Shown here: positions 39,693-47,798 of the stretch, in pieces
Layout: the number at the start of each line of letters is the position of its first letter
Numbering within the stretch: position 1 is the first letter of the stretch
Source of the DNA: Portibacter marinus
Lineage (GTDB): Bacteria > Bacteroidota > Bacteroidia > Chitinophagales > Saprospiraceae
Assembly (NCBI RefSeq): GCF_021533195.1
Contig: NZ_JAJNKB010000002.1
Coordinates: forward strand, 186,001-250,000
Direction: 5' to 3'
Length of the DNA: 64,000 bases
Translations under genes and position numbers: made by a program
The notes under the pieces: generated by a model
Told to the model about the DNA's origin: nothing
What the model saw: only the letters and a program-made list of their open reading frames with translations
Database searches by the model: none

Positions 39693-40631
39693 ATGACAAT
39701 TAAAAATTTATTGATGATGCTGTTTGCGATCCTGATGGTAGCTGCAGCATGTGAAAAAGAAGTCGCAGAAATCCCTAAGGAAGAAACCAAACCAACTGGT
39801 AGATTTCAGTTGGAAATGACGGATTCGCCTGTTGATCATCCGGAGGTGGAAGCTGTATTTATAACCATTGCAGATGTCAAGCTTGATGGCGAGTCAATTG
39901 AAGGTTTTGAAAAAACCACATTTGATATTTCAGCTTACCAGCAAGGTGATGTGAAAGTTTTATTTGACGGTAGTTTAGCTGTGGCCAATTACAGTGATCT
40001 TGAGATCGTTTTAGACCATGCTAAGGATGATCAAGGGAATTCCCCCGGAAGTTACGTGCTGGAAAAAGATGGTGAAACATACGGTTTGTCTGAGCTTGCT
40101 GAAAGCACAATCAAATTCGAGCGGACTATTACCATCGATAGTATTGAAACATCCAATATCCTGGTAGATTTTGATCTAAGAAAAACCATCAAGGAGGGTG
40201 ATGAAGATCGAAAATACGAGTTTACAGCCGGTTCTTCCTTTGAATCTGGTTTTAGAATAGTAGACAAAAAAGACTCCGGAAAGATTATTGGGCAAATAAA
40301 TGATCCTTTGTCAAATAGTGAAGTTACTGTCGCCTATATATATAAAAAAGGAACATTTAATTCTGAGATTGAAACTTCTGCACAAGATGGAATTTTATTT
40401 GCCAATGCTTACAGTAGCGCCAAAGTGGATGATGAAGGAAACTTTGAATTACATTATTTGGAGACAGGTAAGTATGAACTTTACTTCGGCTCTTTTGATG
40501 TTGAAGAAGATGGTGGCCTATCCTTAGAAGGGAGATTGACCATGGACGCGTTGAATTTAACAGATATTGATATTCAGGCCAACAGTACACTGAATATTGC
40601 ACTCACAGTAACTGGAATATTAAATCTGTAG
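39693..40631 (+). CDS. DUF4382 lipoprotein
   Basis: The 312-residue lipoprotein has a signal peptide with lipobox VAAAC. A DUF4382 domain covers about 35-190: it starts GRFQLEMTDSPVD, the family hallmark, and includes VEAVFITIADVKLDG and NILVDFDLRK. A C-terminal domain (about 195-312) looks like a carboxypeptidase-regulatory-type beta sandwich. The function is unknown; DUF4382 proteins are exported and Asp/Glu-rich. It is the first of two DUF4382 genes flanking the TonB receptor and feoAB. A 12-bp palindrome, AAATTATAATTT, abuts the ATG. Confidence 0.85.
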   Translation: MTIKNLLMMLFAILMVAAACEKEVAEIPKEETKPTGRFQLEMTDSPVDHPEVEAVFITIADVKLDGESIEGFEKTTFDISAYQQGDVKVLFDGSLAVANYSDLEIVLDHAKDDQGNSPGSYVLEKDGETYGLSELAESTIKFERTITIDSIETSNILVDFDLRKTIKEGDEDRKYEFTAGSSFESGFRIVDKKDSGKIIGQINDPLSNSEVTVAYIYKKGTFNSEIETSAQDGILFANAYSSAKVDDEGNFELHYLETGKYELYFGSFDVEEDGGLSLEGRLTMDALNLTDIDIQANSTLNIALTVTGILNL

Positions 40632-45810: not shown

Positions 45811-47709
45811 ATGAAATATATGAAATTTACTAATCTATTCAACCTGTTTATTTTGCTATTCATAGGTCTGATCAGCTTTTCGTCTTGTAATAAAGACCTG
45901 ATAGACAACTTGAATAAAGAAAGAAAATTATTAATAAGATTGACTGATGCACCTGTAGATGCAGAGGAGGTCAATGTAGATATACAAGGTATTATCATCA
46001 AAACTGATGGTGGTCTTGATTCCGTTAGTTTGGATACCGAAGCCGGAGTTTACAATTTATTAGATTATCAGAATGGTGCAGATACACTTATAGGCAACGC
46101 CATCATCGATTTTATGGACATCAAGGAAATCAGATTGATCCTTGGAGAAAATAATTCCATTAAGATTAATGGGCTCGTATATCCGTTAAAGGTACCTAGT
46201 GGATCTGAGAGTGGCTTAAAAATTAAAGTTGATGTTGATGTATCTGACGATGAAATAGTGGAGATACTAATTGATTTTGATGCATCTCAATCTGTAGTAG
46301 ATCTTGGTAACGGAAACTACATTCTGAAACCGGTGATCAGTGTTGCAGAAATTATCGAAGACGGAGAGGTTACCTTTGATGAAAATTCTGAAGAAAGTGA
46401 AGTAGACTGTGTAAGAGGAAAAGGTTACTGGAAAACTCATTCTGAATATGGTCCGGCACCGTTGGATTCAGCGTGGCTGGCTTTACCAGATTCTTCTGAT
46501 ACTGAATTATTTACCTCGGAATTGACATATTTGTCTATCCTTGAAGCATCTGCTGGAGGAGATGTTTACTTGAAATTGGCACAGCAATACATCATTGCAG
46601 AACTAAATGTGCTTGCGGGAGTAGATGCTGGCGACGAAGTGCTGACCATTTGGCAAACAGCTCAAGCATTATTGGAAACCAATGCTGATACTCAAATCAT
46701 TCCTGAGGCGGATGAAGAAAGTGCGAAGGAATTAACAGAGGCGCTTGCTGAATTCAACGAAGGTGAGGGGGACGTAGCTTCTTGTGATGATGACGAGGAG
46801 GAAGAGGAAGAAGAAGAAGAGGAAGAGGAAGAAGTGGAAGATGATTTGGAAATTAGCGATGTGGATTGTGTAAGAGGAAAAGGTTACTGGAAAACACACT
46901 CAGAATTTGGACCAGCTCCTTTAGATTCTGCATGGTTACTTTTACCGGATTCTTCTAGAACTACATTATTCGAATCTGAGTTGAAATATATTACCATACT
47001 TGAAGTTCCAACCGGTAATAATCCTTACCTGAAGTTAGCAGAGCAATATATCATTGCTGAATTAAATGTTATCGCAGGTGCTGATGCCAATGCTGATGTA
47101 TCTGCGGCTTGGGAGGAGGCTGGCGCTTTATTGGAAGCCAATATTGTAGAGCAAACCATTCCTGACGCTGATGAGTCAAGGGCGAAAGAACTGAGAGAAA
47201 TTTTGTCTGAGTTTAATGATGGTGATTTAGATGTTGCCTCTTGCGATGATGAAGAAGAGGAAGAAGAAGAGGAGGAAGAAGAAGAGGAAGAGGAAGAAGA
47301 AGAGGAGGAAGAACAAGGACCTTGTGTTAGGCAAAAAGGATACTGGAAAACTCATTCAGACTTAGGTCCTGCTCCATTAGATGAAGCATGGTTAGAGCTT
47401 GAAGATGGTGCGAACACTGACTTCTTGGGTACTGAAAAATCATACATGTACTTCCTGGAAATCAATACAGGTAACAATGCTTATCTTAAGTTGGCTCAAC
47501 AGTACATTATTGCAGAATTAAACCAATTTGCAGGTGCAGAAATGAATGGTGACACGCAAGAATCGTGGGAAGCTGCAAAAGAATTATTGGAGAAATATCA
47601 AGATGATCTTGAAATAGCGGAGGAAGATGAAAAAGACGCTAAAGATCTCGAAAAGGATTTAAAGAAATTTAATTCTGGAGAGGCTGGAGTAGAATCTTGT
47701 GATGAATAA
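45811..47709 (+). CDS. DUF4382 lipoprotein with three Cys-bounded GYWKTHS modules and poly-Glu linkers
   Basis: The 632-residue lipoprotein has lipobox ISFSSC and a DUF4382 domain (about 38-185; LLIRLTDAPVDAEEV, VEILIDFDAS). Three modules follow at residues 200-325, 353-478 and 505-630. Each is exactly 126 residues, starting with Cys in CVRxKGYWKTHS and ending with Cys in (A/E)SCD. Shared features are GPAPLD(S/E)AWL, YLKLAQQYIIAELN and a final helical DE-rich segment. The linkers contain 13 (329-341) and 21 (481-501) consecutive Glu. Similar Cys...GYWK(N/T)H modules occur in secreted bacterial proteins, with unknown function. Anchoring at the cell surface is likely; cation binding or adhesion is inference. 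It lies downstream of feoB. Confidence 0.85.
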   Translation: MKYMKFTNLFNLFILLFIGLISFSSCNKDLIDNLNKERKLLIRLTDAPVDAEEVNVDIQGIIIKTDGGLDSVSLDTEAGVYNLLDYQNGADTLIGNAIIDFMDIKEIRLILGENNSIKINGLVYPLKVPSGSESGLKIKVDVDVSDDEIVEILIDFDASQSVVDLGNGNYILKPVISVAEIIEDGEVTFDENSEESEVDCVRGKGYWKTHSEYGPAPLDSAWLALPDSSDTELFTSELTYLSILEASAGGDVYLKLAQQYIIAELNVLAGVDAGDEVLTIWQTAQALLETNADTQIIPEADEESAKELTEALAEFNEGEGDVASCDDDEEEEEEEEEEEEEVEDDLEISDVDCVRGKGYWKTHSEFGPAPLDSAWLLLPDSSRTTLFESELKYITILEVPTGNNPYLKLAEQYIIAELNVIAGADANADVSAAWEEAGALLEANIVEQTIPDADESRAKELREILSEFNDGDLDVASCDDEEEEEEEEEEEEEEEEEEEEEQGPCVRQKGYWKTHSDLGPAPLDEAWLELEDGANTDFLGTEKSYMYFLEINTGNNAYLKLAQQYIIAELNQFAGAEMNGDTQESWEAAKELLEKYQDDLEIAEEDEKDAKDLEKDLKKFNSGEAGVESCDE

Positions 47710-47760
47710 ACACAAGATTAATCTGCGAATGATATAATACCTAGTTATCTATGTATTGGG

Positions 47761-47798
47761 GGTGAAATTCTTTTTGAGAGTTTCACCTCATTTTTTTT
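47761..47798 (+). terminator. Predicted terminator after the poly-Glu lipoprotein gene
   Basis: GGTGAAA (47761-47767) pairs with TTTCACC (47781-47787), followed after TCA by eight T residues. The T-run overlaps the 3' end of the convergent hydrolase gene. Confidence 0.65.

Follow-up and report, generated by a model that had tools for sequence, protein, structure and literature searches.

Gene and Protein Layout at the Locus

The window, a stretch of 64,000 nt from the genome of Portibacter marinus (contig NZ_JAJNKB010000002.1, positions 186,001–250,000), contains a gene encoding a lipoprotein-like protein in which a DUF4382 domain is followed by three modules joined by runs of glutamate (table 1). 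The modules belong to an unnamed family for which we use the label GYWK domain throughout. The gene has feoB as its upstream neighbor, 143 nt away, and on its 3' side a terminator-like hairpin is followed by a convergent lipase-like gene; gene names in this neighborhood represent our own reading of the translations. The pattern scan identified two terminator-like sites in the region against a mean of 1.1 in shuffled sequences, and a scan for sigma-70 promoters was uninformative (four sites versus a mean of 6.8 in shuffles).

Table 1. Features of the Three-Module Gene and Its 3' Flank (positions in the window)
Feature	Position	Strand	Basis
CDS, 632-aa lipoprotein-like protein, DUF4382 and three GYWK modules	45811..47709	+	Open reading frame
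Signal peptide with lipobox-like FSSC, Cys26 the predicted lipidated residue	45811..45888	+	Inferred from sequence reading and pattern scan
DUF4382 domain (PF14321), residues 41–174	45931..46332	+	Pfam, E=3.9e-28
GYWK module 1, residues 200–325	46408..46785	+	Module alignment; AlphaFold2 pLDDT 93.6
Poly-Glu run of 13, residues 329–341 (8 GAA, 5 GAG)	46795..46833	+	Codon count
GYWK module 2, residues 353–478	46867..47244	+	Module alignment
Poly-Glu run of 21, residues 481–501 (14 GAA, 7 GAG)	47251..47313	+	Codon count
GYWK module 3, residues 505–630	47323..47700	+	Module alignment
Terminator-like hairpin, then T run	47759..47789	+	Pattern scan, 14 pairs

The DUF4382 match scores 98.8 bits against a gathering cut-off of 25 and covers positions 5–136 of the 136 in the profile, in agreement with the original prediction. 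The N-terminal domain thereby belongs with the DUF4382 lipoproteins, one of which, from Haloferax, is listed as exported and as having a lipobox in an excerpt of PMC8241124, whereas the fused modules are no part of DUF4382. The genome encodes two DUF4382 proteins and both genes lie inside the window; the second (39693–40631, forward strand) is found across a TonB-type receptor gene and encodes a lipoprotein-like protein that has no modules.

As read from the sequence, the protein begins with a short hydrophobic signal ending in FSSC at Cys26, and its only cysteines are Cys26 and those at the six module ends. The predicted lipidated residue starts the sequence C-N-K-D-L, which has one acidic residue past the Lys. 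According to an excerpt of PMC5080379, the minimal surface-export signal of C. canimorsus is K-(D/E)2 or Q-A-(D/E)2 after the lipidated Cys, and the signals SDDDD and SDDFE are given for other genera. C-N-K-D-L differs from the C. canimorsus signal as given in that excerpt, a rule that comes from another genus and may not be that of this lineage. Because the sequence is incomplete by this rule, it is possible that the lipoprotein faces the periplasm instead of the cell surface. The protein has a net charge of –120, to which modules 1, 2, and 3 contribute –19, –14, and –17, and the two linkers –22 and –23.

Relationship and Age of the Three Modules

The three modules are each 126 aa long, have a Cys at both ends, and align without gaps at exactly the coordinates that had been proposed for them. 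Pairwise identity is 68% for modules 1 and 2, 52% for modules 1 and 3, and 54% for modules 2 and 3, and module 1 used as a query retrieves modules 2 and 3 with e values of 2.7e-52 and 6.6e-37, respectively. Each module had been described as opening with a Cys followed by GYWKTHS and closing with a Cys; the terminal cysteines are as described, whereas GYWKTHS begins at module position 6, four residues past the first Cys.

The original prediction also held that the modules were duplicated recently, and here the data point the other way. Among fourfold-degenerate sites in shared codon boxes, 13 of 34, 6 of 21, and 8 of 25 are identical in the three module pairs, compared with means of 12.0, 7.9, and 9.9 when third positions are shuffled, and 42%, 89%, and 85% of the shuffles reach the observed identity. 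Because these sites are no more alike than shuffled third positions, they are saturated between the modules. A tree of 23 modules agrees weakly: the three modules of the window and the two of a similar protein in the congeneric genome G001 form one clade (support 100/100), within which the G001 pair (92/94) groups with module 3 on a poorly supported branch (83/82). We therefore reject a recent duplication; judged from these comparisons, the duplication is specific to the lineage and old, and there may have been more than one such event. We consider an assembly artefact unlikely because the modules differ from one another by 32–48% in protein sequence and the congener encodes a similar two-module protein.

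Poly-Glu and Other Linkers

Both glutamate runs have the lengths originally predicted. In the 5.19-Mb genome, a search for eight GAR codons in a row yields 20 overlapping matches, all of which fall in these two linkers; since the runs are unique in the genome and mix GAA with GAG, they are not a plain codon repeat. We surveyed the flanks of 28 tabulated modules. The linkers of G001 are rich in Asp, Glu, and Ser, a Flavobacteriaceae protein (L009) has an Asp/Glu run on the C-terminal side of its module, the linker of G003 is Gly-rich, a Saccharospirillaceae protein (L011) has (DPT)n ahead of its module, and L010 has Lys/Pro/Cys/Asp repeats after it, and many of the 28 have no low-complexity linker. 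The modules themselves vary in charge, the two of G001 being acidic (–11 and –9) and others neutral or basic, up to +9. The glutamate runs had been proposed to serve as spacers or to bind cations. Because varied low-complexity spacers surround a conserved module, the survey favors a spacing role, and the idea of a specific metal site is weakened. Charge is kept as a possible second function of the linkers because acidic runs recur in three proteins (the window protein and those of G001 and L009).

The GYWK Domain Is Apparently Uncatalogued

The module had been thought to represent a domain without a defined function, and the profile searches support reading it as an uncatalogued domain. Scanned alone, the module matches nothing in Pfam, NCBIfam, or the sequences of the PDB. 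Searches with 20 family members against Pfam and NCBIfam returned only scattered matches to single members, 23 members searched against PHROGs returned nothing, and even the best match from a PDB sequence search by profile, to a chain named dAID23.4L, was not convincing (e value 0.03). A Pfam match to SACK1 (residues 482–529, 22.8 bits with a cut-off of 21.4) was rejected as an effect of composition because it sits on the run of 21 glutamates and disappears when module 3 is scanned alone. TcpQ, DUF6084, SAP130_C, DUF5111, CysQ, and two other models were likewise rejected, as each matched one member and, wherever a curated cut-off was given, fell short of it. The strings GYWKTH, GYWKNH, and GFWKNH are absent from the open-licence papers searched, and among the matches listed for GYWK in such papers none evidently concerns the module domain.

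GYWKNH-like motifs occur in secreted bacterial proteins, and their link to the module was tested with hhalign and a shuffle control. Alignment of the three modules of the window with seven GYWKNH members gave a probability of 97.3 and an e value of 2.5e-11 over columns 1–92 of 126 only, and alignment of six single-copy GYWKTHS-type modules with the same seven members gave a probability of 99.6 over nearly the whole length. A profile of the seven distant GYWKNH members scores the modules of the window at 23.4, 36.2, and 36.8 bits, compared with at most 9.1 bits for 3,000 shuffled modules. By these profile comparisons, the GYWKTHS and GYWKNH branches are one family. Both share the opening motif and the closing Cys, and the GYWKNH type is found in secreted-looking proteins and is likewise unnamed. 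The seven GYWKNH members are, as far as read, single-copy, whereas the protein of the window has three modules and poly-Glu linkers; GYWKNH rows also lack the GPAP stretch that follows the motif in the branch of the window.

An alignment of 28 rows that includes the three modules of the window has five invariant residues (Trp8, Trp23, Leu57, Asn67, and Asn117), and Gly6, His11, and Gln60 are each conserved in 26 of the 28. The first Cys is present in 25 rows and the last in 27, counts that are partly built in by construction, since ten rows had been extracted with a pattern running from Cys to Cys and three others were placed on a Cys by eye.

Divergent members were also observed. Two loci in genome G642 (L019 and L021) have AWWKTV or AWWRAV in place of GYWKTH and carry extra cysteines (eight and seven per module, respectively), and L019 has a tail of Cys/Pro/Lys repeats. 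Two genes about 5 kb apart in genome G1081 (L045 and L047) encode modules that lack the first Cys, and the Cys pair is therefore not universal in the family.

Predicted Structure and Viral Matches

AlphaFold2 models computed with a family alignment have a pLDDT of 93.6 and a pTM of 0.89 for module 1, and 96.9 and 0.91 for L024, a distant GYWKNH-type member. Both models open with a short helix at residues 5–10, and their three long helices follow in matching order (residues 53–69, 76–91, and 100–117 in module 1; 44–60, 66–80, and 95–111 in L024), so that the long helices of the two branches are predicted similarly; the L024 model has two extra short strands. Foldseek searches of the PDB returned nothing at an e value of 0.001 or less for either model, and the 15 (module 1) and 43 (L024) matches obtained up to an e value of 10 have best e values of 3.3 and 0.93, respectively. 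The predicted fold is thus likely unrepresented among solved structures.

A Foldseek search of predicted viral structures with module 1 identified three uncharacterized pithovirus proteins (LCPAC001, LCPAC202, and LCDPAC02; e values 1.7e-6, 2.8e-5, and 6.8e-4; query TM scores 0.79, 0.83, and 0.77; 25–31% identity). A weaker match was to an Indivirus protein named for collagen triple-helix repeats (e value 0.016, TM score 0.59, 19% identity). The likeness of the pithovirus and Indivirus proteins to module 1 is that of these structural matches.

Distribution and Domain Architectures

Relatives were counted by profile at an e value of 1e-4 or less unless stated otherwise, the genome of the query is included in each count, and the sampled genome sets overlap. 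The module was found in at least 3 of 60 related genomes (e value of 1e-3 or less), 1 of 395 genomes of the class of the query (its own genome alone), 4 of 199 of its family, and 3 of 199 of the phylum of the Planctomycetota genome, these four counts being lower bounds because the profiles lacked divergent members. The module was also found in 4 of 296 genomes of the phylum of the query and in 6 of 149 genomes of the class of the Ignavibacteriaceae genome, two of which are apparently identical to genomes of the query's phylum (same contig coordinates). A pattern scan of genome contigs yielded 115 matches, five of which were confirmed, in Bacteroidetes, Ignavibacteriaceae, Flavobacteriaceae, Planctomycetota, and Saccharospirillaceae. 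Taken as sequence matches, these place an apparently uncatalogued GYWK domain in Bacteroidota/Ignavibacteria, Planctomycetota, and Pseudomonadota, where it is widespread but rare.

A sequence on a Massilia plasmid is matched weakly by the G003 module (e value 7e-4) and shows the motif variant GYWGSK in translation, the plasmid searches with module 1 and the L024 module found none, and the phage collection holds no relative of the G003 module. One scan of viral_contigs found a single GYWKNH-type locus (L040) and three other scans of that set found no locus. A phage origin was rejected on these searches of the phage collection (G003 module), PHROGs (23 members), and viral_contigs, in which L040 was the one locus found.

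The module is single-copy in most relatives examined. A survey of copy number had been suggested for related genomes; among DUF4382 proteins, that of G003 carries one module, that of G001 two, and that of the window three, and the linkers vary among them. Among six relatives scanned whole against Pfam, L007 contains DUF4382, L008 contains CBM96, L009 contains fn3, and L011 (3196–7545) contains PKD, PD40 propeller repeats, and a match to the hydrazine synthase alpha middle domain, and L010 and L027 contain no Pfam domain. By our own reading, several other module proteins have C-terminal sorting-like sequences. Genome G473, from the Planctomycetota phylum, encodes five modules in five reading frames (L020 and L022–L025), each secreted-looking and with one GYWKNH-type module; in L024 and L025 a Gly-rich stretch precedes a hydrophobic tail, resembling a sorting signal.

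Genomic Neighborhood

The two-module gene of G001 also adjoins feoB. A match to feoB was obtained in 23 of 30 genomes, and among 14 neighborhoods examined a DUF4382 gene lies near feoB in two, the window and G001 (the others represent 12 genomes). A second congener, G002, has no module match in its genome. Here the 3' ends of feoB and the lipase gene overlap without an intervening gene (L076, 6015–8954), and the locus looks like an unoccupied site of the module gene. Because G002 has these two neighbors side by side and no module gene, the latter is accessory. The module protein and feoB of G003 are encoded on different contigs. A partnership with FeoB as a general link was rejected on the basis of the 2 of 14 neighborhoods and the absence of the gene from G002, and is kept only as a weak rival below. 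The suggestion that the locus represents an undescribed system was not borne out, as it concerns a single accessory gene whose feoB adjacency is common to one congener only among the 14 neighborhoods; rather than a system, it is an apparently uncatalogued domain family in a new arrangement.

Possible Functions of the Module Protein

The reading that we prefer, with a probability of about 0.42, is that the modules act outside the cytoplasm as tethered binding units, multivalent and each closed by a disulfide, arranged as helical beads on a flexible polyanionic string. Cys26 would anchor an outer-membrane-type lipoprotein with DUF4382 as its base, and each module would fold into a compact bundle, its two ends probably held together by a C1–C126 disulfide. 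The poly-Glu linkers, extended by charge repulsion, would keep the modules apart, and three copies would provide avidity for an extracytoplasmic ligand, most likely a polymer of the surface or matrix, by analogy with the accessory domains of adhesins and of secreted enzymes. The partner domains (CBM96, fn3, PKD/PD40, and DUF4382), the sorting-like C termini of several other relatives, the copy number of one to three, and the spacers led us to this reading, and the viral company, in the form of the weakly matching Indivirus collagen-repeat protein, was counted in its favor; the two of six whole-scanned relatives that have no Pfam domain and the incomplete export signal count against it. Because the module is usually single-copy, avidity would not be its general role. 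Trp8, His11, Trp23, Gln60, Asn67, and Asn117 are candidates for either core or ligand-site residues, and the polar positions among those conserved may have only a structural role.

The acidity of modules and linkers in the protein of the window, together with the acidic modules and Asp/Glu/Ser-rich linkers of G001, would also suit a stalk or polyanionic surface brush that extends and charges the cell surface without a specific ligand. This seems rather unlikely, since different phyla retain the residue signature even in neutral and basic modules, which argues for a specific role of the module itself. Position near the C terminus raises a different idea, namely, that the module is a tag recognized by an export or anchoring machine, like other C-terminal-proximal domains of secreted proteins: in 11 of the 28 modules tabulated, no more than 12 residues separate the module end from the stop codon. 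However, L009 has its module at the N terminus and L011 and L027 have theirs in the interior, and by our own reading a sorting-like sequence follows the module in L017, L030, L031, and L043, making a tag very improbable.

Capture of cations, in which poly-Glu and acidic modules would concentrate Fe2+ or Ca2+ in connection with the neighboring FeoB, draws on the proximity to feoB in the window and G001 and on the acidic runs that flank the module also in G001 and L009. Against it stand the confinement of that proximity to these two of the 14 neighborhoods examined, the retention of feoB in G002 without a module gene, and the separate contigs and Gly-rich linker of G003, and we regard it as distinctly improbable.

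Beyond the tethered binding module, we tentatively propose that the GYWK domain may define an undescribed extracellular superfamily, shared by several bacterial phyla and giant viruses of eukaryotes, with a fold absent from solved structures and possibly with a common ligand bound through the Trp/His/Gln/Asn signature, and that in this lineage the domain would have become a multivalent receptor by tripling on charged spacers. A conserved domain that occurs in several phyla, and in giant viruses as judged from structural matches, but has no match in Pfam, NCBIfam, or PHROGs as searched here and no fold match in the PDB constitutes an annotation gap, and one binding screen or crystal structure could lead to the annotation of many secreted proteins. 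The protein of the window presents three natural variants of the module on one polypeptide.
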